DNA of 64,000 nt from Spraguea lophii (lineage: Eukaryota > Microsporidia > Spragueidae). Below the pieces are notes generated by a model. That model saw only the letters and a program-made list of their open reading frames with translations, was not told the DNA's origin and ran no database searches. Made by a program: the position numbers and the translations under genes. Positions 9,439 to 59,895 of the stretch are shown in pieces. Position 1 is the first letter of the stretch, and each line of letters begins with the position of its first letter. The stretch covers positions 1-64,000 of the forward strand of contig LDOQ01000010.1 in the NCBI GenBank assembly GCA_001887945.1, written 5' to 3'.

Positions 9439-9947
9439 AAAAAATAATACAGTCACGTCCAACTTGGTCCAGTGGTCATGGGGTAGTAACCCAACTCAAG
9501 CCTGGATGGTTCGAATCCCTCATCCAGATTAATTTTCAAAACAAAAAATAATAATAATAAAAGACAGAAGACAAGAAAAAGGTTGTTGAGTGGATGAGGG
9601 TTTGATAGCGCAGCATTAACTGTGCCTTATACGACGGCCCACTATTAGATTAGTGTAGTGTTTAGCTGATGCAATTGTAATCTCTTTATGATTTGTGACT
9701 CGGCCAATACTATGCAACGAAAAAGGTTAAGAATTTCTTAAAAGCGGGGACGGCGACGTGCACCAGACGCAAAACCCTAACACTCTGGAGCATAAAGTAG
9801 AATGAGATTAATGCAATCTGTGGTGAAACCTGTTAATACAAGCTTAGATATGCTTGAAGAACCGAAGGACACAGACCATGGTAGGCGCAACCGCCCAGGG
9901 AACTTCGATCCATAAAAGTTTCATTGATAAAAAAAATAATACAATCA
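9439..9947 (+). repeat. Full-length SINE copy with target-site duplication
   Basis: The element occupies about 9456-9930 and is flanked by near-identical 17-base repeats at 9439-9455 and 9931-9947 (one mismatch). The head (about 9461-9530) has an A-box-like TGGTCCAGTGG (9465-9475) and a perfect B-box GGTTCGAATCC, the latter inside a 7-bp stem CTGGATG/CATCCAG. A body of about 390 bp follows and shares long blocks with the copies at 18878 and 59428. The 3' end reads ATAAAAGTTTCATTGAT and then runs of A. This head-body-tail plan with target-site duplications is that of a tRNA-derived SINE mobilised by a LINE reverse transcriptase. I see no reading frame that looks real inside it. Confidence 0.85.
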
Positions 9948-10029
9948 ACATAAAACTTATTTTGTAATTTAAAAAAAATAATGATTTTAATTATACAAAA
10001 ACATGTTTATGATCTTATGAAAAAATAAA

Positions 10030-10032
10030 CCC
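10030..10032 (+). promoter_or_regulatory. CCC start-proximal motif
   Basis: CCC immediately precedes the ATG of the leucyl aminopeptidase gene. Confidence 0.6.
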
Positions 10033-11472
10033 ATGCTTTTAGATTGGAGGAGAATTTTCAGTAATGATAAAAAAGAAGGTCCTACAGCTTTAGTTGTTCC
10101 TTATAAATGTGATAAACGTGAATATATTTTATTAGACTCTCTAAACGATAAAGAAAAAATAATTGAATTTTTAAAAGAAACTAATTGTACAGGTAAGCCA
10201 GGAGAAAACAGAATTTTTCCTTTAAAAGGAGACCAATATGATTATATTGCTCTTTTTGCAATAAATGACGAAGAAGACAGTGTAGAATGTAGTGTACTTG
10301 AAGGTGCTGCAAAATTATATTCTTGTTTAAAAGATTATGGAGTAAAAAATGTTAAAATTTCAGAAGGTATTTATAGTGATATGGTAATAAGAGGATTAAT
10401 GCTAAAAGGATTTAAATACGATTTTTTGAAAAAAGAAAAGGAAGATCCTTTAGTTATTTTGAGTGGCGCTACTGATAAGTTTAATGATGATATTGAAAAA
10501 ACTAAAGCACAGTTATTTTCAATATTTTTACAGGAAACACCTGCTAATTATCTAACACCTACATTATTCTGTGAGTATGCGAGAGAATACTTAAAAGACA
10601 ATCAGAATATTAAAATAAATGCATACGACGAGGAATTCATGAAAGAAAAGGGGATGAATATGTTATTATCAGTTGGACAAGGATCTATTCAACCATCTAA
10701 ACTCTTGGTAATTGAATATAAAGGAAAGAATACAGAAGAGTTTGATGTAGGATTGGTAGGAAAGGGTGTTACTTTTGATTCTGGTGGTATTTCACTAAAA
10801 CCTGGTCTGGGTATGAAAGATATGAAAAAGGATATGGGCGGAGCATCTGTTGTTTTATCCTCAATTGGATATACAGCAATGAAAAAAGAATCAATAAATG
10901 TTGTGTGTGTTATTCCATTAGTGGAAAATTTGCCTTCTGATAAAGCTACTAAACCTGGAGATGTTTTTAAAGCTATGAATGGTAAAACTGTGGATGTTAC
11001 AAACACAGATGCCGAGGGAAGATTGATTCTTGGTGATGCCCTTTGTTTTGCACAAGAAATTTATAACCCAAAATATCTAATGGATTTTGCTACACTTACA
11101 GGTGCTATAATTGTTGCTTTAGGAAGCACTTATTCAGGTGTATTTTCTAACAGCAATGAGTTATTTGAAAAAATTCAAAAAGCATCAGATATTTCCAAAG
11201 ATGAAATATGGAGAATGCCATTAGATAATTTAACAAGAAGAAAATTAAAAGGTGATGCTTCAGATTTATTGAATCATATTAAATTTGGAAGTGGATCAGT
11301 TCTGGCTGCCGTTTTTCTTGAAGAATTTGTTAAGAAAGAAACAAAGTGGGCACATTTTGATATTGCAGGTATGATGGAAGGCCCACAATTGAGTGGCGTA
11401 TATGGAGATTATGCGCAGGGAAGACCTACCGTGTTGCTATGCGAGCTTATGAGTTTACTATCTAAGGAATAA
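10033..11472 (+). CDS. M17 leucyl aminopeptidase, 479 aa
   Basis: This is a cytosolic metallo-exopeptidase that removes N-terminal amino acids from peptides. The catalytic half (residues 160-479) is complete. KGVTFDSGGISLKP contains metal-binding Lys244 and Asp249, and the family signature NTDAEGRL is present, with Asp326, Glu328 and Arg330. Further metal and active-site positions (GMKDMKKDMGGA) are conserved. The N-terminal third is the more variable regulatory domain of hexameric M17 enzymes. Length is normal for the family. The start is fixed by the adjoining CCC. The gene lies beside a peptide transporter, so a shared role in peptide use is plausible but is inference. Confidence 0.95.
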   Translation: MLLDWRRIFSNDKKEGPTALVVPYKCDKREYILLDSLNDKEKIIEFLKETNCTGKPGENRIFPLKGDQYDYIALFAINDEEDSVECSVLEGAAKLYSCLKDYGVKNVKISEGIYSDMVIRGLMLKGFKYDFLKKEKEDPLVILSGATDKFNDDIEKTKAQLFSIFLQETPANYLTPTLFCEYAREYLKDNQNIKINAYDEEFMKEKGMNMLLSVGQGSIQPSKLLVIEYKGKNTEEFDVGLVGKGVTFDSGGISLKPGLGMKDMKKDMGGASVVLSSIGYTAMKKESINVVCVIPLVENLPSDKATKPGDVFKAMNGKTVDVTNTDAEGRLILGDALCFAQEIYNPKYLMDFATLTGAIIVALGSTYSGVFSNSNELFEKIQKASDISKDEIWRMPLDNLTRRKLKGDASDLLNHIKFGSGSVLAAVFLEEFVKKETKWAHFDIAGMMEGPQLSGVYGDYAQGRPTVLLCELMSLLSKE

Positions 11473-11482
11473 TAAAAATTAT

Positions 11483-11653
11483 TTACTTAAGTTTTTTGAT
11501 TATTATTTTATATAGCAATTTAATTTTAATGGTTGGATTAGGTCTGCTACCGTTTTGAGTAATTAAATCCTCTGCAATACGAGATATAACTTCTATTTTC
11601 TCATTATAACAACAAAAAGAATAATATCGTATTCTTCTATACGTACAATACAT
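11483..11653 (-). CDS. Small hypothetical protein, 56 aa
   Basis: A short minus-strand frame starts at ATG 11653 and ends 10 bases after the aminopeptidase stop, a convergent spacing typical of compact genomes. The product is basic and well mixed (for example SRIAEDLITQNGSRPNPTIK), unlike the noisy translations of the surrounding AT-rich DNA. I do not recognise a family. It could also be the last fragment of a decayed gene, since there is no CCC motif and the frame upstream is closed. Confidence 0.4.
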   Translation of the reverse strand: MYCTYRRIRYYSFCCYNEKIEVISRIAEDLITQNGSRPNPTIKIKLLYKIIIKKLK

Positions 11654-13613
11654 AAAAATTTGTGTAGAATTTTATTGACGTTCCTTGTCTATAACTAGAT
11701 TTAACTTTTAATATATTACATTATAAATGATAAACAATATTGATTATTCGCGATTCTCATTTTATATTAACTTTTAAAAAAATTTTTTTCTGTCTATTTT
11801 TAAATTTTTAATTGATATTTCTCTTGGATATTAATATTAGATAAAATCATGAAATGCTAAATAATAAAGATATTAAAATCTCATTAAGGATGAGAAGGTG
11901 GCTATAACACGCATCATTCTTAAAATCCTAATATTCTGGAGTAGAAGATAGATGTGGTTAATGTATACATGTAGCGAAATCGACAAATATAGATTATTCG
12001 CGTTCTAAAATCCTAATAATATCATGCCATAATGAGCGACAATTGATTTGGCAATTGATAGTAATTAACCTTGGATTACAAAAGACTTGGGAAATAAACA
12101 TAATTTATTTAAAATATCTATTTATATAGATGAAAGAAGTTTATATACTTTTTGATCGGTTTATAAACACTGATCATCATCAGGTATCAATATATTATTT
12201 CATTGATATATCATTTTTGATTCATTATCTAAAATAAGAATCATTCAGAATTTTAAATCTGTAGTCTTACATTTTAATAAAGATACATGGAATATATTCT
12301 ATATAATATTTATTTATTTTTCTTTTTAAATATATCATATTTTGATATAACCAATTATTTGTTAGATGATAGTATTTCCATCGTTTAATTGATTCATTTA
12401 CTCCGTTTTTTATAAAATCCCTATTATTCCGTATTCATATAATTCACAGGGATATCTGTTAATACCCTATAATTGTTATTATTCAATAAATTAAATAAAA
12501 TAAAATTTGAAGTTATTTCATTTTTGATGTATTTTTTAATAACATTTTAATTGTTATCAAAATAAGTTATCTAATTTATTCAGGTCTGGTAAAATTGATT
12601 GTTCAGAATACACGTATATAATTTACTAACTAAATTTGTTTTGTTAATTTCATTTTATTTTGTGTTCTAGGCAATTAAATTTTGCGTATAATACATATTT
12701 CCAACTCCACATCGGCGCAATTATAATATCCCATTTGAATAATACAGTCTAAATTATACATTATTATAGATGATAATAAATATTGCATAAAATCAAAATG
12801 TATTTTCTGTAAATTATGAGAATTATGAATATTCAGGATTTCTTTAAAAAAAGATGTAACGATGCCAATCAGATGGATAGTAATTATTTACCTAATGTTC
12901 GGTCAGTTACAATAGAACATTGCATATCTAAAAATAAAGATAATTAAATATTATGTTTTTAGAAAATAATACTTTCATTTCTAATACTTGAAATCAACAT
13001 ATTCGTATAAAATTTAAAGGATATTATACCTGGCAAATACTTTGAAATAGCAATAATGTCATAATACAATAAAATTTAAAATTCTCTATATAGCACCTAA
13101 CTTTCTTCTTTGTAAAATTCCTAAATTCAAAGGGACAAATACAAAAAATTTAATATTTTATTCCTTTTTTAATAGATCATGGATTATTACACTAACTAAA
13201 TACAGTTTATATATGACTAATATTTATAAACTATTATATTTCTATATAAACTATATATACTTCGACATTTAATCATCATTTTTGTATTTAAAATAAAATA
13301 AAAATATTATATCTTTGTTAATTATTTATTATTCTAATAAAATATATTTTGTAAATATAAATATATGTTTATTACATCAAATGACATAACAATAAAACTA
13401 ACATATAATTTATAAATGATTATAAATAATTTATTGTATTAAACATATTAAAATAATATTAAATTATATTTTATTTGTATAATTATTTTGTATATTTTCT
13501 TTTTATAGAAATCTTTAAAATCGAAATATATATATGTCAATTTTTTTAGAATATTAAATATTTTATCTTTTCCCTCCTGACAACTCCTTTTAAAAAAATA
13601 TTATATACACCCT
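11654..13613. other. Gene-poor stretch
   Basis: Apart from the SINE fragment at 11885-12000 I see no gene or RNA here. Bases 11732-11750 and 11985-12003 share the phrase GATTATTCGCG, which may be a small local duplication. Confidence 0.4.
11885..12000 (+). repeat. Ancient SINE fragment (plus strand)
   Basis: Only the later part of the body is recognisable: AAATCCTAATATTCTGGAG, then a degenerate GATGTGGTTAATGTATACA and GTAGCGAAATCGA. These follow the order seen in the intact copies. Confidence 0.6.
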
Positions 13614-14921
13614 ATGGATTGTTTCTTTCTTACAATTACAATTCTTGGTGCATTTATTATGGTGTTTGGATTGATATCTTTGTTTATAAAAGAAAAGTTG
13701 TATATTTCTGAAACTCTCGTAGCTACAGTATTTGGTATCATCATTGGTCCATATGCTCTTAAGGCTGTTCCAATTGATAGCTCCTATACCATTAATTTTT
13801 CTAGAATAGTTATTTGTATGCAGGTTATTTGTGTTGGTATGATTGTTCCTAAAACTTATTTGATAAATGAGAAACGGAGTCTTATGATGTTTTTAGTTCC
13901 AATTATGATTATTTCTTATATAATTTCTTCGGTAGCTATACATTATATATTGGGTTTGAATTGGTTATATTCTTTTATAATTGGAGCATGTGTAACTCCA
14001 ACTGATCCAGTCTTATCTTCTACTGCATTAAAAGGAAAATTTGCCAATAGATACGTTCCACAGCATTTACGAAATTTGTTAACAATAGAAAGTGGTGCTA
14101 ATGATGGTCTTGGATTTCCTATGTTGACACTTCCATTATATCTTCTGGGTTACAGTAAAATTACCAAAGCTCTTTATATGTGGGGATTTAGAACTTTATT
14201 TATAGAAGTTTTTATAGCAATACTTATTGGTATTTGCATTGGATATATTAGTAGAAAAATACTTTATTTCAGTGCTGAAAGAAAACTGATTGATAAAGAA
14301 TCTTTTTTATCTTTTCTGATTGCATTGACATTTTTTACTACTGGATTTACTGCTATTTTTAGTTTGGATGATATATTAGCATGTTTTATTACAGGAATGG
14401 TATTTGCATATAATAGAACATTGGTAAATGATATAAAAGATAGTCATCTTTATGAAGTAATTGATTTATTGTGTAATCTTTCATTTTTCATATTCTTTGG
14501 TGCATCTATTCCTTTTGCCCAAATAAAATTGAAATATATTATAGTTGGTATTGTACTCTTATTTTTTAGAAGATTACCTGTTGTACTTGCATTTAAAGAA
14601 TTTGTACCACAATTATTTAATTATAAAGAAGCAGTCTTTGCTGGTTGGTTTGGTCCTATAGGTGTAGGTGCTGTATTTTTCGCATATCATACACAACATG
14701 AAATGGAACACTTTGGTAAAGAATTTATAACTCTACATAACACATTCTATGAAGAAATAATACCTATTATTTATACAATTGTTATGTGTTCTATTATTGT
14801 ACATGGTATTACTGCACCAATCATGCATATTCACCTGAAAAGAAAAAAAGCTAATACCATAACTGAAATATCAGAAAGTGAATATACAGAATTTGAAGAT
14901 CAACCTATACTTCAACAATAA
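13614..14921 (+). CDS. NHA1/Sod2-type Na+/H+ antiporter, 435 aa
   Basis: A polytopic membrane protein with about 12 segments and the hallmarks of monovalent cation/proton antiporters of the fungal NHA1/Sod2 type. TPTDP includes Asp131, and GANDGLGFP carries the Asn163-Asp164 pair that binds the cation in the CPA fold. FAGWFGPIGVGAVFFA marks a conserved late helix. These proteins export Na+ or K+ in exchange for protons at the plasma membrane and control internal pH and salt. The long cytosolic tail of yeast Nha1 is absent, leaving about 35 polar residues after the last helix. CCC ends two bases before the ATG, which supports the start. Confidence 0.9.
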   Translation: MDCFFLTITILGAFIMVFGLISLFIKEKLYISETLVATVFGIIIGPYALKAVPIDSSYTINFSRIVICMQVICVGMIVPKTYLINEKRSLMMFLVPIMIISYIISSVAIHYILGLNWLYSFIIGACVTPTDPVLSSTALKGKFANRYVPQHLRNLLTIESGANDGLGFPMLTLPLYLLGYSKITKALYMWGFRTLFIEVFIAILIGICIGYISRKILYFSAERKLIDKESFLSFLIALTFFTTGFTAIFSLDDILACFITGMVFAYNRTLVNDIKDSHLYEVIDLLCNLSFFIFFGASIPFAQIKLKYIIVGIVLLFFRRLPVVLAFKEFVPQLFNYKEAVFAGWFGPIGVGAVFFAYHTQHEMEHFGKEFITLHNTFYEEIIPIIYTIVMCSIIVHGITAPIMHIHLKRKKANTITEISESEYTEFEDQPILQQ

Positions 14922-15635
14922 AAAGAAAAATAGTTAATAATCCGTATAAAAATTAATCAATCAATTATTTATATCACTGTGAGATTAATTCATATTTTCG
15001 GATCATTAAATAAAATATTATCTAAAAATATTTTATATTCAAATTTTAACAGAGAATAATAATTTATTTTTTTTAAGATTTCCATTCAATTATCGTTCAT
15101 TTTTCGATAACATTTTAATTATATTCAAAAATAATATTTTAAGTAATGTTAGGTTCAATATTTTCAGATTACTGGTTCATCTAAACACGAATAATTTGTA
15201 TTAATCGGTTTTATTACATATATACATTATTATTATCATATATTTCAGAGGGTCAATTATTTATTTTTGGTTAAAATTATCGTATAAAAATTTCATAATA
15301 AGATTTTATATGACAAACTTAATTTCTTTCATTTAATATTTGATGTACATTATTTTTTAACTAAAGATTTATCAGTCTGGTGTATTTCCCTTTCACTCCT
15401 AATTTTAAGAATAATATTTTTTTGTTGAAACAATTTAAAACATAATCCAATAATTTTAATATTATTCTCTTTTAAAGAAATTAAAGATTTAAATTATAAA
15501 TGTCATATGAGAATATTTCTTTAAGTAATATTTTATTTTAAAAAATATTAGTTAATAAAATTTTATATCCGTTTTACAATAAAAGCCATTCTTCCTCTAA
15601 TAAAAATAAAATATATTTTGATAACAAACTAACAT
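14922..15635. other. AT-rich intergenic stretch, nothing recognised
   Basis: About 0.7 kb with no credible frame or repeat seen. Confidence 0.5.
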
Positions 15636-16052: not shown

Positions 16053-16376
16053 GGGGTAGATATTTTGTTTTTATTTATTTATAAAAAAATTTCTATAATT
16101 TTCATCAGAAAGGAAATAGAAATTTATATAACAAAAAGAAATTTTCTTTAAACAGAAATTATTTTAAAGTTTAAAATTATCTTAAAATGATTATATGCTT
16201 GATAGTAAATTGTAATATAAATTAGTATAAAGAATTAATTTCCATATATTATATCATTATGATAATAAAAAAATATACAAAAGTAATAAATAATAATAAA
16301 ATATACAACAATAATAAAAAAATATTAATAAATTACTTTTCATTTAATTTATCATTTTTTACAAAAAACATTTTCT
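16053..16376. other. Short AT-rich intergenic stretch
   Basis: No feature recognised apart from the CCCC at 16053-16056 next to the EF-hand gene start. Confidence 0.5.
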
Positions 16377-16715: not shown

Positions 16716-17036
16716 GCACAAAATAATAAAATATCTTTAAAAGGATGGAAGTAACCAATGAGAATTATCTCCTTTTTCATTTCATTTAAAAAAGATTAAT
16801 AGATATTTTAAATAAAATACAGCAGTAAATGATATGACATTTATTTCATTGAAAAATCTTAAAGAAATAATTTATCAAATTATTAAAACATCTTAAATAT
16901 AGAATTTATAAGATTATTAAAAATAGAATATAAAACTTGTATTTCATTTAAAAAAATATTAAAACATAAATTTATCTTCTTATAAATAGTAAAATATTAA
17001 AATATATCTTTTAAAATAACATATTTAAAATATATT
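16716..17036. other. Short AT-rich intergenic stretch
   Basis: No gene, RNA or repeat recognised. Confidence 0.5.
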
Positions 17037-18861: not shown

Positions 18862-19308
18862 ACCCATGATATGATAAAAAAAGAATAATAATAAACGCAG
18901 AAGAGAAGAAAAAGGTTGTTGAGTAGGTGAGGTTTCGATAGTGCAGCATAGCTGTGCCTTGTATGACGGCCCCGCTACTAGATCAAAGTAGTGTTTAGCT
19001 GATGTAGTTGCAATCCCTGTATTGATTTGTGACTCGGCCAATACTATGCAACGAAAGAGGCTGGGAATTCCTTAAGAGCTGGAAGTGGGGGCGGCGACGC
19101 GCACCAGACGCAAAATCCTAACACTCTGGAGCATAAGGTAAGATGAGATTAATGCATATATGTAGTGAAACCAGTTAGTACAAGCTTAATTTCGCTCGAG
19201 GAACCGAAGGTCACAGACCATGGTAGGCCGCAACCGGCCAGGAAGCTTTGATAAATAAAAGTTTCATTCGTAAATAAAAAAATAAAAAAAAAACCCATGA
19301 TATGATAA
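18862..19308 (+). repeat. SINE copy, 5'-truncated, with perfect 16-base target-site duplication
   Basis: The element body runs from about 18878 to 19292. It is flanked by the identical 16-base sequence ACCCATGATATGATAA at 18862-18877 and 19293-19308. The tRNA-like head is missing, and homology starts at the AATAATAATAAACGCAGAAG block. By eye the body differs from the copy at 59428 at only about twenty positions in roughly 385. The 3' tail is ATAAAAGTTTCATTCGTAAA followed by A-rich sequence. The frame of 63 codons that crosses it on the minus strand is not a gene. Confidence 0.9.
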
Positions 19309-20316: not shown

Positions 20317-21201
20317 AGGGGATAAAATATTTTATAATAAATGATATTATAATTAAAATTATATAGATTATATAAATTATAATTGTATGGTGATTATAGA
20401 GATTATTTTATGAATTATAATTGTATGGTGATTAATAGTATAAAGATTATTTTGTAAATTATAATATTATAAAATAATTTTATATATTAATCTGTAATGT
20501 TAATGTTTGTAGATCATTTTTTAATAAAATTTTTAATAAATAACAAAATATTCTTCTTAAATATAAATAATAAATTTAATTACAATCATAGATATTATTT
20601 AAATATTATAATCATAAAGATTATTTAGTTGTTATTTAAATTAACTAACTCTAAAAGGAGAAAGAATATTAAATTATTATTAATTAAACTTATTGCTAAT
20701 TAAATTTAGTATTGTTAAGACTTAAATTATTTTAAACCCCTTTAAAAAATTATAGATTATTGTTTTTTTAAACAAGTAATATACTTGTACTAACTGATTT
20801 CGTTACAGATATGCATTAACCTCATCTTATACTTATAATATTATATATTTATATATAATATTTTTATATAATAAATTTTAATTTATATACGAAGATATTT
20901 AACGTCATTTTATTATAATAAGTATATAAGATAAATATAATATAATAAATATAACTCATTTATTATGCTTATTATTTGATTATAAATATAAACAAAAGAA
21001 TATTCAATAATAAAAGTAAGATTTGTTGTAAATAAACTTACAAAAATCAAAAGAAATTAATTATTAAATTTTATTTCATTTTAAAATGATATAGAAATAT
21101 AAATAATTAAATATTCTTTATCGTATTATTCTTTATACTTGACATAGAAATATATAAAAATATTAAATAATTAAATATTTTTAGAAATACTACCCTACAG
21201 A
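20317..21201. other. AT-rich intergenic stretch
   Basis: Holds an old SINE fragment (20762-20850) and otherwise repeated AT phrases such as TTATAATTGTATGGTGATTA (near 20377 and 20415). No gene recognised. Confidence 0.4.
20762..20850 (-). repeat. Ancient SINE fragment (minus strand)
   Basis: The reverse complement of the SINE 3' third is recognisable: ACTTGTACTAACTGATTTCG, then CAGATATGCATTAACCTCAT. The rest has decayed. Confidence 0.6.
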
Positions 21202-28881: not shown

Positions 28882-29830
28882 GTGAAGGCTATTTTGTTGT
28901 AATTTTTTAAAAAATGGGTTTTATAATAAAATAATAGAAACATGATTCATACGGATATTAATAGAGTAAAAATATTATGGATTATGGTTATATGCTATAT
29001 ATCGTATATTATTGTTTATTTCGGTAGTACTTTTTTAAAAAAAATTATTAAAAAGAAAAATATGATGATCATAGATTCACCTGGTTAAATACCCACGAAA
29101 TGACGACCAAGCTCAAAACTTAGCAGATTCTGATCCCTTGCTCAGAAAAAATATTACAAAACATAAATATAAAAAAGTGGAAGAGAAGATGTTATGTAAA
29201 TATATGAGATTAAACGACATTATTTTATTATGCATTGTACGACTGTCTTAGTATAAGATAAAACACTAGCTAATTAATGTAATTACAATCCTTGTATTTA
29301 TTAGTGAGCAAGCTAATGTTATGCCAAGATGAATGTTAAAATTACATTAATCTGATAGAACGCTGGTTCCATAGTACGCAAAATTTTGATGTCCTGGAAC
29401 ATAAAATGAGATATGATTAATGTGTACACGTAGCAAACTCAGTTAGTACAAATATATTGCTTGTTTTAAAAAACAATAGTTTCTATTCATAGCAATTCAC
29501 AAATTGCCGAGATATTTTGATGACAAGTAAAGTAGTATCTAAAAAATAAAAATTTTATTTGAAGATTAAATTCTATTTAAATTACCATAAGATTTTTAGC
29601 AAAATACATATAAAATTATACAAATAGACAGAATTATGTTATTGATATTCATTATAATTTAAATTCATAAAATAAAAAGTATTAACAAAATATTATTTTA
29701 TCAAAAAATATTTATAGATATCAACCATCTTAATTATAGTTTAATTTCCAATTTAAATATTATTTTACATTTTAATTTTATTTCAAATATTGTAAAAAAT
29801 ATTTTTATTTTTATACAAACGGATATACCC
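28882..29830. other. Divergent intergenic stretch carrying a SINE relic
   Basis: Between the primase gene and the AAA ATPase gene. About half is occupied by the diverged SINE at 29085-29500. The rest is AT-rich with nothing recognised until the CCC at 29828-29830, directly before the next ATG. Confidence 0.5.
29085..29500 (+). repeat. Diverged near-full-length SINE copy
   Basis: The degenerate head is recognisable (GCAGATTCTGATCCCTTGCTC in the B-box region near 29121-29142). It is followed by body blocks in the right order, including AATTACAATCCTTGTATTTATT, GTACGCAAAATTTTGATG and GATATGATTAATGTGTACAC. No clean target-site duplication is visible. Confidence 0.65.
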
Positions 29831-34849: not shown

Positions 34850-35312
34850 GCATACTTAGCTGAGTAGTCGTGAGGTTGTAACTAAATCCCACGTCTAGCG
34901 AGATCCTATATCTAGAAGAATTTCAAAAAAAAGAATAAAGGATAGGAGGAAAAAGGAGTAAGATGGTGTGTGGGTTTTATAATGTAACATTAGCTGTATC
35001 TTGTACGACAAGCCCGTTACTAGATTAAAGTAATGTTTAGTTGGTGTAATTACAACCTTTATATTGATCTGTGACTAAACCAATATTAGGCTAAAAATAA
35101 AGTTAAAAATGTCATTAAAAATGATAGACTAATGATTATATCATACACAAATTTTAACACTTTAGAACATACGATAAAGTGAGGTTAATACATCTATAAC
35201 GAAACTATCTAATACAAAGATATTACTTTTTTTAGGATCAAATAATTTTAAACCATAATATGTCGCAGCCGGATAGAAAACTTCTACAAATAAAAGTTTT
35301 ATTTTTAAAAAA
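34850..35312 (+). repeat. Diverged full-length SINE copy
   Basis: The head reads ACTTAGCTGAGTAGTCGTGAG in place of ACTTGGTCCAGTGGTCATGG, and the B-box has decayed. Body blocks follow in order: ATTAGCTGTATCTTGTACGAC, CCCGTTACTAGATTAAAGTA, ATATTGATCTGTGACTAAAC and GTGAGGTTAATACATCTA. The 3' end ATAAAAGTTTTATTTTTAAA is clear. This is an older copy than those at 9456 and 59428. Confidence 0.75.
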
Positions 35313-35477
35313 ATGTACCAAAAACAATTAATTGAATCAATGATTATATTACAAATCAAAATAATTAACCATATTAGTTTTAAATCAACAAATGACTTAA
35401 TATTAAAAAAAAGAAAATATACTCAGAATTGATATGTAATAATATTTAGTGATATTATTTTTTTTAAAAAAAAATTA

Positions 35478-35555
35478 ACTGAGGGATTCGAACCCGTTGG
35501 TCTTAGAATTTGGTTACTACCCACGACCATTTGACCAAGTATGTTTAATAATATT
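35478..35555 (-). repeat. Solitary SINE head (tRNA-like, minus strand)
   Basis: On the minus strand this reads TGGTCAAATGGTCGTGGG (A-box region), GTAGTAACCAAATTC, then GGGTTCGAATCCCTC (B-box with flanks), followed directly by a T- and A-rich run. No body block follows. It could be a head-only copy, a truncated element or a degenerate tRNA gene. I could not fold a full cloverleaf by eye. Confidence 0.65.
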
Positions 35556-38451: not shown

Positions 38452-39204
38452 AACAATAAAATTTATAAATGTTAATTTATTGTTTATTTATTAAAAATAA
38501 ATTACTTTCTTATTAAAAATTTTGGATAAAGCTGTTTCGATAACATTTTAAATTATTTTATAATATTTTATATATTTGATATTAATAATTTTTATTTTAT
38601 TTGTACGTACTTTTTACATTCATGTTATTATTTTACGATAATATAAAACATATACATATTTTAAATAATTATATCATTAATGTGTTCCTGTGTACTCATT
38701 ATCATTACAATTTTTTTAAAAATAAAACTTTTATTTATAGAAGTTTTTCAAAGCAAGTAATATATTTGTATTAACATTATCTGTTATATATATGCATTAA
38801 TCTCATCTTACCTTATACTCCATAATATTAGATATTTATATATGAATTTTATTTCTGTTTTTTTAATCTGTATTAATACTTTAATTTCTATATCAAATTA
38901 TATTATCTAAATCAATAATCTATAAGAATTGTAATTACATCTGATTAAGTCTTTTTTTTGATTAAACAATAAGCTTTAACTACAAGATATATTCGAGTCA
39001 CGTCATAAAATACTTATCCATTCAATCAATCCAATCTAAATATTTTCATTGTTTTGGGAATTCCCCTAATTGAATAATCTTGCTGGAGTTTCTTATTTAT
39101 TGGTAAGAATTTATGTATTTTATTTATTATAGATTTTAATTAAAATATATTTATGCTTAATTTATAATTTTTAGAAGTTGTATAATAAATAAAAGATTGT
39201 TTAT
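38452..39204. other. Intergenic stretch, partly SINE
   Basis: Contains the minus-strand SINE relic at 38712-39000. No gene recognised. Confidence 0.5.
38712..39000 (-). repeat. Ancient SINE copy (minus strand)
   Basis: The reverse-complemented 3' end AAAACTTTTATTTATAGAAG begins the copy. It is followed by ATATATGCATTAATCTCATC, a remnant of CTTACCTTATGCTCCAGAG, and the AATTGTAATTACATCTGATT block. The head is not recognisable. Confidence 0.65.
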
Positions 39205-49205: not shown

Positions 49206-50685
49206 TCTACTTAAAAAATTAGGTGAATTAAATAATTAAAACTTAATATAGTATTTTCATTAAATATCACATTTAATTTCTATTGCTATTTATTTTATTA
49301 TTTATATTTTTTTTATTCTACTTATTTCTTATTTATTTTTTTTATTACTAGGTTAGGTTAGGTTGGTATTTCTATAAAAATATTATATATTTTTATGGTT
49401 TACTATCTTTCTCAATCTATTTATTATCTTTTTTTATTTGATATACATTATATTTCATCATTTACAATTTATTTATAGCTATGTCAATCTCTTATTTTAT
49501 ACGTCTTAAATTATACGATACTTTATTATGAAGTATTTTTAGATATTCGTTTTTCTTTCAAATATTTATATGTGTATATATTACGAATGTTAAATTATAT
49601 ATTCGCCAAAAAATTTTATGAATTATTGGATTCAATAATGCAATCCAAATATTCGATTATGTATATTTACTAGTAAAACTGTTATTGTTAATAATTTATT
49701 ATTTTTTCAATGGTAATATATAATTTTATACAAGCTATGATTTATGATAAAATCTGGACATATTTATTTCCACTTGAATTTAGAAGAAAAAAAAATTAAA
49801 TAACAAAAATATCATGTAGATATAAAATAAAAATCGAATAAATAAAATATATGCGTTTTTTTAGAATCCTAGGAAAAACGTCAATTTACACGTCATAAAA
49901 ACTAACTTTAAGTTGAAAGAATAATATGTAAATCGAAATTATGTACGTTCATTGGGTTTGGAAATATATAACCATTTTAAAATATGTGTATATACTTGTA
50001 AAATTAAATTATTTTATACATTTTTTAACATACATAATATTTTGAATTCAAAATTTACCTTTTTTAAAAATTATAGTTATTTTAACATAATTTCAAGTAA
50101 AAAAATATTTATGAAAATCAAATATTTCAATATAAATATCTATTTTATGAACAACATCTATAACATTTGAAGAACTAATTTGAAAATCATTAACAAATAA
50201 ATACAAGAATATTAATTCTATTTTATAATTAAAAAATGAATGTAACATAAAAGAATATTTATCAAAACAATCAAAACCTTTTATAATTAAATTAAAAAAA
50301 GTGAATATACTATGAATTAATCTAATAAATTATATTAAATATATTTTTTAAATAATGTTTTTTCAGACGTTTTTTAACTACTTTTTGGTAGTAACAAAAA
50401 TATTTCAATTTTCCATTTATATATAAATTTAATGACGTATCAAATATTGACGAAATTGTATTTTTTTTAAAAATATTCCAAACAAAATAAGCAACTGTTT
50501 ATGGAATATCACACTAAAGTAGTAATTTTTTACAACTAAAGGTCTTTGGAATAGTATCATATACATTGTGTAGATTCTAAATTTTGAAGCTAATAAACCT
50601 TTGGAGAATAACTTTAAAAAATTTAAGTAATTATCTATTAATAGATAATTAATAGAATATATATACAATATATTTGGGAAACAAT
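49206..50685. other. AT-rich intergenic stretch
   Basis: No gene supported. A doubled TTAGG unit (ACTAGGTTAGGTTAGGTTGG at about 49348-49367) stands out. A perfect 24-bp palindrome at 50628-50651 is listed separately. Confidence 0.4.
50628..50651. promoter_or_regulatory. 24-bp perfect palindrome upstream of kinase gene
   Basis: The half-site is TAATTATCTATT and its exact reverse complement follows without a spacer. It ends 34 bases before the ATG of the first kinase gene. It could be a dimeric factor site, but AT-rich DNA produces such palindromes readily. Confidence 0.3.
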
Positions 50686-51984: not shown

Positions 51985-53269
51985 AATTTATTGGAATATG
52001 TAATAAGTTTTAAAAGAATAAAAGTTTGTTGTTTAATTTGAAAATGTTGTCATATTTTTTTAATTACCATTTTGATTATCATTAAAGGACTTTCATTGTT
52101 TTAAAAAAATCATAATCTGGGATTATCTGTTTTTGAATTATGAGTAACTAATACGAATTACTTTCGTTTTTATATGCATTAATCGTATTTTATGTTCCAG
52201 AATGGTAAAATTTTCCATATAATATAATTATAATTCTTGCTGAATTGATAAAATTTTTATCTTTTTCTTGATATAACATCGGTTGAGTCGTTAATCAATA
52301 CAAAGATTGTAAATACACCAATCAAGCATTATTTTAATCGAGTAATAAAATCATTGTATAGATATAATCAAAATATACTATTAAATCATTATATATTCCT
52401 CTACCCTTCTTCTCGCTTCTATTTCCAATATCTTTTATTTCTGAACGGAAATTTTCAAAGTTTCGTAATTAGTTACCATGTTACGATCACTGAGTCAGGC
52501 CGATTTAAACGGTTGCTTTACATTGTAAATTATAAATTTACAATTACAAAAAAAGGTTTATAATAAATAATAATATTGAATTTAAAATATTATAAATAAA
52601 TTTGTTAATATAACGATTATAAACAGGATAAATAATATAATAGGTTTGGGCATAATAAATTGTGCGAAATCGGTATTTTATTAATGATTTAATTCATATT
52701 TTAAATGAAACAATTACAGTAATTTAAATATTTATTGTGTATTTTCTTTATGATAGATTGAATTATTGCTATCGTATTACGTTAGTAAAATATCAATATA
52801 TAAAATTAATCCTATGATTTTTTGTTGTTGTATTTAGTCGCTTGATAAAAAATCGCTTATGGTCTTTCAACATTTTAAAGGAACACAAAATGAAAATCTC
52901 GTATTTTAAGTAAAAATGAAAAGATAATAAAAATTAATTACTAAGTATAAGGCAACATATATAATTTTTACGAAATGAAATAATTGTTATTTTAAAAAAT
53001 TATATATTTTTACAAAACCATTTAGACGAACACTTTCATAAAATATAATTAAATTATTAATATAAAAATATTAAAGGAAATATATATCTACATCCCGAAA
53101 ATCCATCTTGTTTTGATAAATTTCATAAATATATTAAAATAACCAACATCAAATAATATTTTGCTTTTTGATTAATAATGTAAATATTAAAAATAGAAAA
53201 GGTTTTATTAAAAACATTATTTCAAAAAAAGACAATGAAATATAAATTTAGTTATGGTTTTCGTTATCC
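51985..53269. other. Intergenic stretch between kinase genes
   Basis: Holds an old minus-strand SINE (52140-52350). No further kinase fragment is recognisable. Confidence 0.4.
52140..52350 (-). repeat. Ancient SINE fragment (minus strand)
   Basis: Recognisable blocks, reverse-complemented: TATGCATTAATCGTATTTTA, TATGTTCCAGAATG, TAATCAATACAAAGATTGTA and CACCAATCAAGCATTATTTT. They are in the expected order. The ends are lost. Confidence 0.6.
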
Positions 53270-54607
53270 ATGTTTACAATTATTATCATTTTTTTAGAAT
53301 ATTTTACTTGCACAGAAGAACCCGCATCATGTGACTCACAAACTTTAACAAAAATTAATAATGAACGAAAAAATATAACTTTAAAAGTAGCATTAAACAA
53401 AAAAGGTAAAAGAAAAAAATCGCCGTGTGTCTTGTCTGAATATGAATTCGATTTATTGATTCATCCTTCGTCAAGTTCTGATGTTTTTGAAATAAAGGGA
53501 CAAAAAAACGAAAAGACGTGTAATCCAGTTGACAAGATCTGTTTAGATGACAATCCTCTATACAACAAGAAAGAAGTGTGTTTAGATATAAAAATCAGAG
53601 AGCGTACCAAATTTGTCAACAAATATAAGAATTTTCATAAAGAAAAAAAACATTCAAAATTTCTAAAAAGTTTTAGAAACCTACGACGGGTAGTATCAGA
53701 ATGGTCGATATATACCAAAAATTTACAAACCAATATAAAGATAGTAAAAAAATTGGTTCTTCAAAAAGATTTACATCCTCTTAAAAGAAAATTTAAAATG
53801 ATAGGTCTTCTGGGATCAGGATCATATAGTAAAGTTTCTTTATACATGACAAATGATACTGGTGTATGTACCGCGATAAAGCACACAATAGCAAGAAATC
53901 CATATTTTTCTGGAATGAATGAATATGACGTATGTAAAAAACTAATGTCTCTTAATCATATAAATATTATAAGAATTTTTGATATTGTTAATATGGATAA
54001 TGAGACACTTATATTCATGGAGTTTAAACCCGGTCAATCTTTAAAAAATTTTGTAGAACATAATAATGAGATTGATGAAGATTTAAAAAGAAAAATAATA
54101 AAACAATGTTTTAACGGTATTGAATTTCTACATAATCATGATATTGTACACGGAGATATATCCACTAAAAATATTTTGGTACTCTGTGATTATATCGTAA
54201 AAATAATTAATTTCGGATTTTCAAGATTTTTAAAATATGGCGAGGAAGTGAGAATTGAGAAATCATTATCCTCGTTTGCATCGCCGGAAAGGATTACGGG
54301 TAGATACTTACATTCTGACGATCTTTGGTCAATGGCTATTTGCATACATTATATATACGAACGATCATTTCCATTCACAAAAACCGACCTCAAAATATAT
54401 GTGAGTAAAAGAGGACCATTGGTTTACAATCCAGGAATATGTACGCCAATCGATATGGTGGATCTTATAGGAAAAATGTTAAATATAAAACTTATTCATA
54501 GGTTAGGTACATCGCAAGGTGATATTAAAATTATTAAGAAACATAAATGCTTTTGTAAAAGTAAACTGAAGCGTTATATTTCAATATTTGTGCGTCATAA
54601 AAATTAA
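53270..54607 (+). CDS. Secreted protein kinase-like protein, array member 2 (NFG), 445 aa
   Basis: The signal peptide candidate is MFTIIIIFLEYFTCTEE. The linker is basic and Cys-containing (Cys21, Cys55, Cys87, Cys93, Cys103). The kinase domain has Gly-loop LGSGSYSKV (from Leu181), AIK with Lys204 and HGDISTKN with Asp296, but the DFG motif reads INFGFSR: the magnesium-binding Asp is Asn314. Everything else in the fold is intact, including SFASPERI for the activation segment. This member is probably catalytically impaired or works as a pseudokinase scaffold. It is closest to member 1 in the catalytic loop and in EHTI/KHT-type sequence around the Lys. Confidence 0.85.
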   Translation: MFTIIIIFLEYFTCTEEPASCDSQTLTKINNERKNITLKVALNKKGKRKKSPCVLSEYEFDLLIHPSSSSDVFEIKGQKNEKTCNPVDKICLDDNPLYNKKEVCLDIKIRERTKFVNKYKNFHKEKKHSKFLKSFRNLRRVVSEWSIYTKNLQTNIKIVKKLVLQKDLHPLKRKFKMIGLLGSGSYSKVSLYMTNDTGVCTAIKHTIARNPYFSGMNEYDVCKKLMSLNHINIIRIFDIVNMDNETLIFMEFKPGQSLKNFVEHNNEIDEDLKRKIIKQCFNGIEFLHNHDIVHGDISTKNILVLCDYIVKIINFGFSRFLKYGEEVRIEKSLSSFASPERITGRYLHSDDLWSMAICIHYIYERSFPFTKTDLKIYVSKRGPLVYNPGICTPIDMVDLIGKMLNIKLIHRLGTSQGDIKIIKKHKCFCKSKLKRYISIFVRHKN

Positions 54608-56420
54608 TTAAACTTTTTTTATGTGATTTAATTGAATATTCAGATCAAGTTATCTTATGACGAAGATGTGATTTAAAAAAATTAGCCTTTATATATTCTC
54701 ATTGAAATTTTAAATTAAGATATATGAAAATGTTTAAAAAATATTTGTTATATTAATCTCATTTTTATACAGCATTTATATTTAAAATTTATATATCTGT
54801 TTTGTGAAGCCTGTAAAACTAGAATATTTAGTGTTAATTGAGAATTTTTGACTCTTTTTTTCATTTGTGTTATTAATAAAAATGTAATTATTAATTTTAC
54901 ATGACTTATAATTTCAAATAAATAAACCAAATTGAAAGTCTTTGACAACATATAGAACAATCTATTATTTTTAAAAATGTATTGTATAATATAATTTTAT
55001 CAGATTTTTGTTGTATATAAATATATGTTACATCTTGACAACACTGACGTGTATGTTCAACCCAATAAGATTTTAACAGATGAAATGAATCAAAATGTCG
55101 ATAATATTGACAGTTAATCAAAAAAGAAAATAAATAAATCATATTTCAAGAATAAATATCTTCGATCTTAAATATCCAAATTAATTTTTTTTATTTTCAA
55201 TAATATAGTTTATAGCCGAAATATTTCGTTTATATATGAAAAAATCGTAATAAAAACAGTTTTACGCGATAAATAGTGATTAAATCGATGTATTGTTCAT
55301 TATTATATATAATTTATATATGAATTATACAACATATTTATCATGGATATAAAAATTTAGAAAAGCTTATCGATGACGACTTAAAAAATAATTTTTTAAT
55401 CTGAAAAATATTCATTTTAAACGTAATTACTATGATCTAATTGTTTATTAAAATACAGAATAAAAAATTACAATATTATTTTATATATAAGTATTAAGTA
55501 ATTAAAATACAAAGAATATAGTTAACGTAAGGAGGGATCAAACTTTTAAAACCGATTGAATATGACTCAGGAAAACCCCATCGTGTTTTTATGCGTATAA
55601 AAATATTCTTGATAAATAATATAATATCTCTATCATCGAATAATTAAAAATTAATTTCAAACATTAATTCGATTCATTGAAGTAAAAATTAAATTTATTC
55701 AAATTTAGAAATTAGTAATTCTCGAACGCTTTATAATCATTGTTTTAAAATTTTCAAAAATTAATATCAAATGTTAAAGAATGTACAAAAACTCAATACT
55801 TAACTGTTAAAAGTTCATAATGGTGTTTATCGAATAAAAAATTATGAGATGTTCATGATATACAAGGATGACTACCAAATAAGTATTGTTCTTTAAATAT
55901 ATTGTGATTGAAACTTTATCCTTTGAATTATAAAAGAAATTAGTCGAAGCAACTAATTATTTTTTATTAAAATATTATAAGGAGTCCAACTGGTCGTTAT
56001 AATAACACATAAATGTTATAAACATACACTGGTTCAATATTACCATTAAATTAAGTGGTTTAAAGATATATTAAAATATTTGGCCATAGAATAAAGGTTT
56101 ATTTAATTTACATATGGTTAATGAACGAATTATCCTTTACTGTCGCTTTGTCGATAATACTGATATATATTAACGTTGTATCAAATTTAACGTTGGTGCA
56201 ATATTATTTGTCGATACACAACGAGTATATAATATAAAACATATATGTTCTACAAATTAATATCCACTTTTTATTATTATTAATCATAATAATCCAATTT
56301 TAAGAAAAAACATTTACTTTTTTTATTATATTGCTTATTAATTGCAAAAAAACAATTATAACTGGTTCAATAATTATATAATTATTATTTACTGTATTAG
56401 GGAAATCAAAAAATAATAAA
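54608..56420. other. Intergenic stretch between kinase genes
   Basis: About 1.8 kb. Some short frames (for example minus strand 54906-55142) look weakly protein-like but have no start context or motif. I see no kinase fragment. Confidence 0.35.
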
Positions 56421-57704
56421 ATGAATAAAAAGTTTAGCTCCATGATAATATTTACAATTATAATGCAGATATTTTGTGGGCCATATGAAAAGTTGCCAAA
56501 GATGTCGCGACGAGAAATAAAATCTTTAATTAAAACTCCCGGCTTAACATCAAGCTTCCCGATATATCCTACTTCCAGAAAAAAGGAAGATAAAGCTTCA
56601 AAAATATTATTTCCTTCACGAAACGCTGATAGAAATCCGACAGATGTAAAAAATAATAACATAGCTTCTAATCAAAAACAACAAGGTGCGTGTCGTAAGA
56701 AGCCTGCCATTTTAAAAAGTATGCCTGTTTCAAAAGCAATTGGTATAAAACATCACCTTCGGCCTATTATATATCTCCCAATTTATATACCTATCAAAAA
56801 TGATGATATGATGAAGGAGTGTTTATTACAAAATAATATAATAGAAAGTATCAATGAATGTAGAATGTATTCATTAAAAGGTGAAGCTGATTATTTACGT
56901 AAAGTTTATACGGAAATAAAAAAATTAGGGGAAGGGTCGTATGGGACTGTTCATTTATATAAGGTAAGAGATAAAGATGCACATGTTGCTGTAAAGTTAA
57001 CAGCGATCAAAAATAAAATAAGTAGCGATCTTCAAGAATATGAAGTATGCAAAGAACTTATAGAATTAAATCATCGCAATGTAATAAGAATTTATGGTAT
57101 ATTTTTAGGTAAAAAATATATGTTAATATTTATGAATTATGAACGCGGATACAGTTTAGCCCAGATCGTTTTAAAATATAATGTTCATTATGAATTCAAA
57201 AGAGAAATAATGGCACAAGTCACTGAAGGAATAGCTTTTTTACATAGAAGTGATATTGTTCATGGTGATTTATCCCCTAATAATATTATGATTGATTTAA
57301 GGGGAATTGTAAAGTTAATTGATTTCGGGTTTTCTCGAAATATGAAGATGGGAGAAGAAATATGTATACCCCCAACATCGACAATCTATCTTTCGAATGG
57401 AAGGGCTTTGGGTAGATATAAACATTCAGATGATTATCATTCATTAGGCATATGTATATTCTTTATTCATGAAGAAAAATTACCGAGTTATAGGGAAGAG
57501 TTTATAAAAAAAGTTATGGTTGAACGTCATATTGATTTTGAGTTTGGTATGAATAGTACAGTTGAGGAGGTAGACATTGTAATACAATTGATAGATGGTA
57601 AATCGGATTCTCGGTCGAATCCAAAAGAAAGTACTGTAAAAATCATAAGGAAACATAATTATTTTAAAGGAACTAGTTTTGCAAGATTAGAAACAATTGT
57701 CTGA
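56421..57704 (+). CDS. Secreted protein kinase, array member 3, 427 aa
   Basis: It starts MNKKFSSMIIFTIIMQIFCG, a typical signal peptide. A basic linker of about 140 residues follows. The kinase domain has LGEGSYGTV (from Leu169), VAVK with Lys192, HGDLSPNN with Asp283 and DFG with Asp301 (LIDFGFSR). The catalytic residues are complete. The block YEFKREIMAQVTEGIAFLH is nearly the same as in member 4, so these two are recent sisters. The activation segment (PTSTIYLSNGRALG) lacks the APE-type triplet seen in most kinases. Confidence 0.87.
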   Translation: MNKKFSSMIIFTIIMQIFCGPYEKLPKMSRREIKSLIKTPGLTSSFPIYPTSRKKEDKASKILFPSRNADRNPTDVKNNNIASNQKQQGACRKKPAILKSMPVSKAIGIKHHLRPIIYLPIYIPIKNDDMMKECLLQNNIIESINECRMYSLKGEADYLRKVYTEIKKLGEGSYGTVHLYKVRDKDAHVAVKLTAIKNKISSDLQEYEVCKELIELNHRNVIRIYGIFLGKKYMLIFMNYERGYSLAQIVLKYNVHYEFKREIMAQVTEGIAFLHRSDIVHGDLSPNNIMIDLRGIVKLIDFGFSRNMKMGEEICIPPTSTIYLSNGRALGRYKHSDDYHSLGICIFFIHEEKLPSYREEFIKKVMVERHIDFEFGMNSTVEEVDIVIQLIDGKSDSRSNPKESTVKIIRKHNYFKGTSFARLETIV

Positions 57705-58080
57705 TTTTGTATTATTGAGAATTGCTCGTACTTAACTATTAAAAATTGTGATATTGAAAAAATTAAAGAATATAAAATACTTTTTATATATTCAAATTTA
57801 TAAAATTTTCAATTAATATTATTTTTAATTACAATGACTTTTAAAAATTCACATTTTATTTTATGCGTGTTAACCTTACGAAAATAAATAAACACTTTAA
57901 TATAAACAATAGAATAAAGTGGGAAGATTCTGACCAGGTTTGAAAAATAGGATTGAAATTTTTTTAAACATACAATTAAAAAAATGGTATTATTTTTTTC
58001 ATGTTTTTTAAATTCCTCATTTATTATACAATCCATGATATTTTGAAAATTTGCGAATCATTTTTATTTAAAATATTTTT

Positions 58081-58104
58081 TATTCTAGATTTAAATCTAG
58101 AATA
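58081..58104. repeat. 24-bp perfect palindrome
   Basis: The half-site TATTCTAGATTT is followed at once by its exact reverse complement. It lies about 100 bases beyond the transposase relic and could be part of that element's end or chance. Confidence 0.35.
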
Positions 58105-58189
58105 CCACACGCATTGTAGTTTATGAAAAGTTTATCATCTTAATTATCTATCGCATCTTTTAAATATTTATTTTCATAGCTTTTTTCTT

Positions 58190-58640
58190 TGTTTTTGTGC
58201 TTAGTTATTCTTTTATTTCATCATCAATGTTTTGTTTAGCAATATATATTGCATCGTTTTTCAATATTGTTCTTTTTTTGTCTGGATTATTATTCCTTCC
58301 AATATGGTTTTTGCTGATACTTATGTTTTTTTCTCAAACTTTTAATATTTTCTATGATCAACTCATTAAACCTTTCCCTCCTATTGTTATTAAAATAGTT
58401 CATGTATATTTTGTTATCAATATCATTCGACAATAAATTTGCTAGATTATGCTTGTTTTCCAAAACATATATTACCTGATTTTTATTTATACGAAATTTC
58501 TTCGAAATTCTTTTTTTTACCATTAAATCATTGATCTTTCAAATATATTTTCAATTTCTCTTTTTTCTTCCAACTTTTTTAAAGGTTTTTTGTTTTTCAG
58601 CCATAATTGGAATTTTTCCATTTTTTTAATAAGTAAACAA
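58190..58640 (-). pseudogene. Relic of a Tigger/pogo-type transposase N-terminus
   Basis: Three minus-strand pieces join only through frame changes. The first (about 58530-58635) begins MEKFQLWLKNKKPLKKLEEK. The second (58290-58523) contains KKRISKKFRINKNQVIYVLE, which has the helix-turn-helix pattern (SKKF-x-INKNQVIYVL) of CENP-B/pogo DNA-binding domains. The third (about 58190-58290) reads TILKNDAIYIAKQNIDDEI, resembling the second CENP-B-type domain. Two shifts and missing downstream DDE sequence mark it as dead. The family call rests on motif shape only. Confidence 0.5.
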
Positions 58641-59414
58641 TAAAAGGTCATTGAAAAAACAATAACTTCAAAAAGATGGTTGATAATTTAATAAATAAAA
58701 ACTTGTTAAAAAGTTTTAAAACCCAGTTATTTATAAAAATAAAAAATATGTTTGTAAATTTCATTCTTTACTGTATTTAGAATGCAAAGAATTTTTTGGT
58801 ATTTACGTTTAATTTGATCAAAATGCAGATTTGATAGTTCAATTTATTGCATTCTAAAACATTGACTCTTTCAAATCCGAGTTAAACTTATATTGTTTAA
58901 TTTAAACCGTATATGTATTTGCAATTGTATTACACTTTAACGTAATAAATATTTATATATGATATAATGGCTGATATCTCTTAGTTTTAATGTAATTTCA
59001 GCTTATATTTTTAGATAATATTAGCTAAAATATTAATCAAATACGAGTCAAAACAACATCATATGATCTTATTCGGCCATAACAATGAAATAAATGGCAA
59101 GATACATTGAAATAATATTATAAAGCTTCGTCCTATTCAATTCTTCTTTTAGTTCAACGATTATTTTGTTATTTCGAAAATCTTCTAAAATAAAAACGTG
59201 AAAGCTTCATTCTTAGAATTTGATTATTATCTTATTATCACTGAGTCTGACTAATTTCGCATGTGAATATAATAATATAACGAAGATAAAAAGGAAATGA
59301 ATAAACGTTTGAAAATATTAAACATCATATTTTTAATGATAGCAGATTTAATTAATAAATTGTGTGTATTATAAATAAAATTTCTGTTTTTTATGATACC
59401 AGAAATTCTCAAAT

Positions 59415-59895
59415 TACAATGAAATTCTAAACCCCAAGCCTGGCGGGTTCGAATCCCTCATCCAGAAAAAAATTTCAAAACAAAAAATAATAATAATAAA
59501 CGCAGAAGAGAAGAAAAAGGTTGTTGAGTGGGTGAGGTTTCGATAGTGCAGCATAGCTGTGCCTTGTATGCCGGCCCGTTACTAGATTAAAGTAGTGTTT
59601 AGCTGATGTATTTGCAATCCCTGTATTGATTTGTGACTCGGCCAATACTATGCAACGAAAGAGGCTGGGAATTCCTTAAGAACTGGAAAAGGGGCGGCGA
59701 CGTGCACCAGACGCAAAATTCTAACACTCTGGAGCATAAGGTAAGATGAGATTAATGCATATCTGTAGCGAAACTAGTTAGTACAAGCTTAAATTCGTTC
59801 GAGGAACCGAAGGTGACAGACAATGGTAGGCCGCAACCGGCCAGGAAGCTTTGATAAATAAAAGTTTCATTAGTAAAAAAAATACAATAAAATTC
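59415..59895 (+). repeat. Young SINE copy with target-site duplication
   Basis: The element lies at about 59428-59882 between near-identical 13-base repeats (59415-59427 and 59883-59895, one mismatch). The 5' end is truncated inside the head: the A-box is gone but GGGTTCGAATCCCTC remains. The body and 3' end match the copies at 18878 and 9456 closely, including GACTCGGCCAATACTATGCA, ACCAGACGCAAAATTC and AGTTTCATTAGTAAAAAA. Confidence 0.9.

Follow-up and report, generated by a model that had tools for sequence, protein, structure and literature searches.

Microsporidia are a model of genome shrinkage, and Spraguea lophii, a microsporidian parasite of fish, carries a dispersed, GC-rich repeat that raises the question of whether such a genome moves sequences by retroposition, and what else the machinery involved may have copied. 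The repeat was singled out in the window analyzed here, that is, the whole stretch of 64,000 nucleotides (nt) at positions 1 to 64,000 of contig LDOQ01000010.1, where a sequence-only reading had proposed a family of short interspersed nuclear elements (SINEs) derived from transfer RNA (tRNA). The repeat is almost certainly a recently mobile SINE, because its copies occur throughout the genome, target-site duplications lie far above a swapped-flank control, and an empty insertion site is present. We give a probability of roughly 70% to the combined reading, in which this SINE family exists and template switching during its reverse transcription has produced chimeras with tRNA genes.

The sampled genome is the S. 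lophii assembly of 5,273,041 bases in 73 contigs (C numbers below denote contigs, L numbers loci). The one protein tested from the window, encoded at 10033-11469, is 100% identical over 479 amino acids to the cytosol aminopeptidase of S. lophii 42_110. With up to three mismatches allowed, a 26-mer of the SINE head is found at 109 places in the genome, a 39-mer of the body at 120 and a 26-mer of the 3' end at 152, and none of these patterns is found when read backwards. That 3' ends outnumber heads is expected from 5' truncation, with the caveat that the patterns differ in stringency. The collected loci group into 80 distinct elements. Forty-three full-length young copies give a consensus of 491 nt (GC content 0.456), which runs from a head (nt 1-72, GC 0.65) through an A-rich linker and a body to GATAAATAAAAGTTTCATTCGT and an A tail. 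Young copies agree closely in the GC-rich body of about 375 nt, and the 3' end, ATAAAAGTTTCATTCGTAAAA, contains AATAAA in all 50 young copies and in 12 of the 15 old ones. Among the 67 elements of at least 250 nt, divergence from the consensus is 0.2-4% for young and 8-29% for old copies, the latter showing C>T and G>A changes at about 25% of C and G sites. A profile search of the flanks of 30 other copies (two of the 30 loci lie in the window) yields 14 SINE copies in 72 kb. The density is 0.19 per kb in both the window and these flanks, of which SINEs make up 5.7% and 7.1%, respectively, or about 6-7% of the sampled sequence. Extrapolation from this density suggests about 1,000 SINE copies and fragments genome-wide. 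One exact 26-mer of the SINE, sought in the IMG/VR and GTDB collections, has no relatives there.

The flanks of the copies record their mobility. Sixty-four of the 80 elements have a 3' end and sufficient flanking sequence, 49 of them young (at least 94% to the seed) and 15 old. Defined as at least 11 nt with at most one mismatch, target-site duplications border 40 of the 49 young copies and one of the 15 old ones. When 3' flanks are swapped between young copies, duplications appear in 4.2% of 2,403 pairs. Most duplications are 13-17 nt long. In 30 of the 42 copies that have one, the base before the left edge is T (p = 4e-6 against a background of 0.36), and an A precedes the element itself in 35 of 42 full-length young copies. 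Moreover, a SINE on C48 sits within another repeat, and in five relatives of that repeat the site is single and empty. Nine young copies fall below 11 nt: two have 10 nt, L013 and L042 have 7 and 6 nt, L002, L008 and L014 have no duplication, and the remaining two form an opposite pair at L016. The five of 49 young copies whose duplication is unexplained count against recent mobility. At L016 (1492-2954), the sequence in front of each of the two opposite SINEs recurs behind its partner, with exact matches of 15 and 10 nt; because the flanks are reciprocally swapped, recombination between the two SINEs inverted the DNA between them, about 600 bp.

Two further patterns concern the ends of copies. 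Three truncated copies (L031, L047 and L059, the last near a contig end) all begin within the A-rich linker, at consensus nt 88, where there may be a pause site or a second start. In addition, at least nine contig ends fall inside SINE copies at one consensus position, about nt 367, with left pieces on C3, C19, C35 and C46 and right pieces on C15, C25, C54, C56 and C60. They apparently represent both sides of one cut, perhaps a product of assembly. L055 is an additional separate insertion broken where L038 is, and the two have different flanks.

In the window, the three copies that the sequence-only reading had located are confirmed (Table 1), with a GC content of 0.41-0.43 against 0.237 for the window, an A tail, and the direct repeats that had been described: AAAAAATAATACA(G/A)TCA at the copy beginning at 9457 (17 nt, one mismatch), ACCCATGATATGATAA at 18875 (16 nt, perfect) and TACAAT(G/A)AAATTC at 59427 (13 nt, one mismatch). 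The A box-like motif and the perfect B box lie near the 5' end of the 9457 copy, as had been claimed, and the 5' truncation of the other two fits target-primed reverse transcription. All three had been called young, which holds for the copies at 18875 and 59427. The 9457 copy is atypical for the young family; since it is 13% off the young consensus though its duplication is nearly intact, it probably derives from a diverged source. That reading had also proposed a genome-wide search, a consensus and a count of duplications, all of which were carried out and support a SINE with target-site duplications in a microsporidian. The copies used to train the search profile, 12 young and 11 old, include some from the window. 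The profile detects 12 copies or fragments there at expectation values (E) below 1e-9 and two weaker matches at E 0.003 and 0.013; the best match in the reversed window, used as a control, has E = 1. Together, the 12 copies occupy 5.7% of the window, and all 12 fall between the listed open reading frames (ORFs) of at least 150 amino acids. The window contains three exact B boxes, all within SINE copies.

The promoter region is where the proposed tRNA ancestry must be judged. The A box TGGCCCAGTGG begins at consensus nt 9, with 8 nt ahead of it, and the B box GGTTCGAATCC follows at nt 53. This is tRNA spacing, and this part of the claim stands. Several results weigh against the remainder. The tRNA covariance model RF00005 has no match to the head (L002) at E <= 5. 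Against 48 distinct tRNA sequences, 72 of 300 box-preserving shuffles reach the best score of the consensus head, and 162 of 300 reach that of the 9457 head. A search for a parent among the genome's 57 tRNA genes gives no candidate with resemblance beyond the boxes. Because the head matches neither the tRNA model nor any tRNA beyond the boxes, the element is termed tRNA-type; descent from a tRNA, as judged from sequence, appears only half supported and is not proven. A further difficulty is TTTT at consensus nt 79, which may stop RNA polymerase III or weaken read-through. The first downstream run of at least four T residues behind tRNA genes is 5 or longer in 27 of 30 cases and just 4 in three, and RNA polymerase III might therefore stop at nt 79.

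In the proposed cycle, the A and B boxes inside the SINE would serve RNA polymerase III as promoter, with transcription beginning close to the G of GTCCCGCC, and the transcript would gain or keep a short A tail behind AATAAA. A non-long-terminal-repeat (non-LTR) reverse transcriptase of the genome would then copy this RNA in trans. Target-primed reverse transcription into nicked, AT-rich DNA would give duplications of mostly 13-17 nt and sometimes 5' truncation, end products that are seen in the copies. On some past occasions, the enzyme may have left the SINE RNA, either on reaching its 5' end or partway along it, and continued on a precursor tRNA from the oligo-U end. The DNA inserted ahead of the SINE would then be a tRNA gene, complete or almost so, along with its trailer. 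One such chimera, with a tRNA-Lys pseudogene, would since have decayed.

A partner among the long interspersed nuclear elements (LINEs) of S. lophii is likely. The assembly has nine RVT_1 matches, eight of which were read by eye, with C48:16630 set apart. By their motifs, we take those on C44, C73 and C56 to be Ty3/gypsy, that on C2 (two matches in one ORF) to be telomerase-like, and those on C5 and C48 to be non-LTR remnants. The sole frame-intact non-LTR reverse transcriptase among those read lies at C72:1-1500 (L096, L100), an intact APE-type LINE ORF of 479 amino acids that encodes an endonuclease and the beginning of a reverse transcriptase, where the contig breaks off. The GC content of this ORF is 0.40-0.45 in the part measured, against about 0.24 in the window, and it is a candidate SINE partner or a recent arrival. 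Its endonuclease part matches a decayed relative on C48 (26% identity) and two database proteins with PF03372. A stretch behind the C48 remnant, considered as a LINE 3' end, was rejected as part of a dispersed repeat with five relatives and serves only as the empty site described above. Non-LTR transcripts have been reported from S. lophii (PMC3749934), and Table 1 of another study lists one LINE family for this species (PMC4202319).

The association of SINEs with tRNA genes is far closer than density predicts. A profile search of the 111 nt downstream of all 57 tRNA genes found places a sense SINE directly behind the T run of seven (E 1.8e-28 to 3.3e-8; Table 1). Window density predicts 0.11 such junctions (Poisson p = 3e-11). 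The profile matches start 9-27 nt behind the tRNA, or about 9-18 nt once the two weakest heads are traced back to the element start. The divergence of the adjoining SINE is an upper guide to the age of each junction, since the source SINE may itself have differed. Viewed from the SINE side, five of 89 distinct copies with at least 60 nt upstream are preceded by a sense tRNA-like stretch (scores 80-166), namely four of the seven fused genes and a tRNA-Lys pseudogene at L065. The next best score is 35, the best in two downstream controls is 41, and the antisense cases at L072 and L079 score 100 and 84. In the pseudogene, 13 of 76 aligned positions are mismatched and there is a 2-nt gap. Its trailer, AACTTTT, is that of its sisters L061 and L063 and is joined to the start of a SINE 24% diverged; the tRNA has decayed much as the adjoining SINE did.

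The position of a target-site duplication tells the order of events at such a junction. At L124, TACAGAACTTCTT follows the A tail and TACAAAACTTCTT ends 7 nt upstream of the tRNA, so that a 13-nt duplication brackets tRNA-Ile-UAU and its SINE together, an arrangement matched by none of 30 tRNA flanks and none of 20,000 random 40-nt windows. None of the seven SINE tails is followed by a significant duplicate of the tRNA end and its T run; the best, 7 nt at L075, is equaled by four of 29 controls. Bracketing at L124 and the missing tRNA-end copies favor template switching, and the junctions probably arose by a switch from SINE RNA to precursor tRNA. Thus, there is good but incomplete evidence that the SINE machinery copied whole tRNA genes. 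The evidence on the other side is substantial. Significant bracketing is confined to one of the seven: upstream of L118 there is a 9-nt near match only, equaled by six of 30 controls, and the other five fused genes have no upstream duplication beyond chance. The SINEs at L067 and L132 are the least diverged, yet lack a bracketing duplication that should have survived. None was found around the L065 pseudogene, and none of the 100 young heads listed (of 109) is joined to a tRNA gene. At L067, the SINE end was placed by extrapolation, and the SINE 3' end finds no alignment in 60 nt from that place (L166), which leaves the tail uncertain. About 190 nt ahead of the tRNA-Asn gene there is a 13-nt match, which was not counted, as it was found without anchoring. 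The SINE behind this gene also holds about 1.3 kb with inverted ends (TAGGGTTTCCCGTTTTTT; L067, 1683-2995), by eye a Tc1/mariner-like or other inverted-repeat insertion.

The main rival to template switching is that the SINE or its LINE once preferred sites just behind pre-existing tRNA genes, with no chimera involved. TRE3 of Dictyostelium prefers such a stretch. Insertion of this kind could leave both full-length and truncated SINEs behind tRNA genes, as is the case, as well as tRNA genes identical to a sister (five of the seven), and sister genes could mean that insertions are tolerated beside redundant genes. Furthermore, among 30 tRNA genes, antisense SINEs lie about 70-80 nt upstream of two, at L079 (E 1.5e-5; young, with its own duplication) and L072 (E 0.014). 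However, insertion behind an existing gene should duplicate the tRNA end and T run, of which no significant copy was found, and the sole clear duplication sits on the opposite side of the tRNA, at L124. A pseudogene with its trailer ahead of a SINE (L065) also fits poorly, and the young heads listed show no enrichment behind tRNA genes, as one of 100 lies within 100 nt of a tRNA gene, upstream of it, where 0.22 are expected. Targeted insertion is therefore an unlikely, if serious, explanation.

A more doubtful alternative is that SINEs landed behind a few tRNA genes, whose tRNA-SINE transcripts were then copied as a unit. The resulting end structure would be the same as with template switching, and tRNA-Lys is indeed found twice ahead of a SINE (the L062 gene and the L065 pseudogene). 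This scheme, however, requires that each of seven tRNA species had a donor gene carrying a SINE; no such donor is seen among the sister 3' flanks examined, and the junctions of the two truncated SINEs differ in both the tRNA and the point of joining. Finally, the repeat might be a family of structural RNA genes or a piece of a larger coding element, either of which the sequence-only reading had named as grounds for abandoning a SINE. This could explain the conserved body of young copies but is barely credible given the lack of any Rfam match for the copies, a fold of the 9457 copy not beyond chance (z -1.0), a longest sense open stretch of 50 codons in the consensus (one antisense stretch has 94), the decay of old copies by C>T and G>A, the empty site, and the duplications themselves, whose genome-wide absence had been the third such ground.

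Under template switching, the fused tRNA genes would be new copies, and their sisters bear on this. All seven are among the 26 of 57 tRNA genes that share an anticodon with another (p = 0.0025), with the two tRNA-Met counted as different. ARAGORN labels both tRNA-Tyr genes as Ile, which were reassigned by reading the sequences (with the ARAGORN labels, six of seven, p = 0.018). Five fused genes are identical to a sister over 73, 74, 72, 83 and 117 nt, the last with an intron. The fused tRNA-Ile-AAU differs from its sister at two positions, one in the T stem, and the fused tRNA-Tyr at three, two in the acceptor stem. Beyond the tRNA, homology within 11 sister pairs (200-nt flanks) stays within controls except behind the unfused Arg pair L064/L065; upstream of the Leu pair L089/L090 it reaches the 95th percentile of controls. 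Identity to a sister beside diverged SINEs points to selection, or to conversion between sisters. It is somewhat more likely than not that functional tRNA genes have been made by the SINE/LINE machinery through repeated template switching, which would have added a second copy each of tRNA-Lys, -Asn, -Ala, -Leu, -Ile(AAU), -Ile(UAU) and -Tyr. Each copy would bear a decaying SINE as a date mark, and most would have been kept by selection.

Table 1. SINE copies and their landmarks in the window (coordinates), and tRNA genes with a SINE directly behind them in the assembly (loci).
Feature	Position or locus	Strand or orientation	Basis or remark
SINE, full-length, diverged lineage (13% from young consensus), A tail	9457..9934	+	sequence, profile
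A box-like TGGTCCAGTGG	9465..9475	+	inside 9457 copy
B box GGTTCGAATCC	9508..9518	+	inside 9457 copy
Left target-site duplication, 17 nt	9439..9455	+	right copy after A tail, one mismatch
Young SINE, 5'-truncated, from consensus nt 88	18875..19277	+	16-nt perfect duplication
Young SINE, 5'-truncated, from consensus nt 36	59427..59880	+	13-nt duplication, one mismatch
Old decayed SINE copy	5374..5687	+	profile E 4.5e-15
Old SINE fragment	11875..12016	+	profile E 2.1e-13
SINE fragment	20778..20830	-	profile E 9.2e-11
Old SINE copy	29106..29521	+	profile E 9.1e-32
Old SINE copy, 29% diverged	34857..35312	+	profile, consensus comparison
Old SINE head, exact B box at 35484-35494	35453..35539	-	profile
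Old SINE 3' fragment	38712..38843	-	profile
Old SINE copy	52111..52502	-	profile E 1.8e-23
Old SINE copy, 28% diverged	62566..62895	-	profile, consensus comparison
tRNA-Asn + SINE	L067	sense	SINE 8-9% from consensus
tRNA-Ala + SINE	L075	sense	SINE 15% from consensus
tRNA-Leu-UAA + SINE	L090	sense	SINE 25% from consensus
tRNA-Lys-UUU + SINE	L062	sense	SINE 30% from consensus
tRNA-Tyr + SINE	L132	sense	SINE 10-16% from consensus
tRNA-Ile-AAU + SINE 5'-truncated at about nt 321	L118	sense	SINE 21% from consensus
tRNA-Ile-UAU (intron) + SINE 5'-truncated at about nt 269	L124	sense	SINE 24% from consensus

The window also holds four related protein-kinase-like ORFs in a row between 50674 and 62001 (at 50674, 53270, 56421 and 60715), judged by eye to be a local expansion.

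The sequence-only reading had suggested that the element may be new. A full-text literature search, judged by titles and the starts of abstracts and covering few subscription papers and no preprints, gave no described microsporidian SINE, and the main texts of three papers (PMC3749934, PMC4202319, PMC3486916) have no word beginning with "sine" in the portions available. Conversely, a table for Nosema bombycis assigns 28,669 bp to "SINE", without description in that passage (PMC3614468). The repeat is thus a real, recently active SINE of a known kind, in a lineage for which no description was found. Its activity and its share of the sequence, decayed copies included, indicate that full retroposition persists in a small parasite genome, and a pair of SINE copies marks an inversion. 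If the tRNA chimeras are true, the fused SINE would provide an internal clock for each new tRNA gene, and the birth, loss and selection of tRNA genes would become directly measurable.

Several known systems resemble parts of this picture. The tRNA-derived fungal SINEs of Magnaporthe, Mg-SINE and MINE, combine 5' RNA polymerase III boxes with an unrelated body and target-site duplications. The S. lophii SINE shares all three features but resides in a microsporidian with an AT-rich assembly of 5.3 Mb and is linked to whole tRNA genes. Template switching has been given as the explanation for MINE and likewise for the mammalian U6/L1 chimeras, in which a U6 copy is followed by a 5'-truncated retroelement and one duplication flanks the whole (passages in PMC4476161). 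As in U6/L1, the sequence of an RNA polymerase III transcript in S. lophii is followed, right at the oligo-U end and in the same orientation, by a retroelement that is either full or 5'-truncated. In contrast to U6/L1, the partners are a SINE and a precursor tRNA with its trailer (for tRNA-Ile-UAU, also its intron), five of the seven tRNA copies are identical to a sister, and the duplication is clear in one case only. A 2026 study describes tRNA/LINE-1 chimeras as mostly half-length tRNAs in antisense (in the portion available of PMC13174262). There, too, a tRNA and a retroelement are inserted together, whereas the S. lophii tRNAs are whole or nearly whole, in sense, and joined behind the T run. 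The TRE elements of Dictyostelium, another compact and AT-rich genome, target tRNA genes. The S. lophii retroelements similarly adjoin tRNA genes in a compact AT-rich genome, but they do so without a significant duplication of the tRNA end, and the young copies listed are not targeted to tRNA genes.

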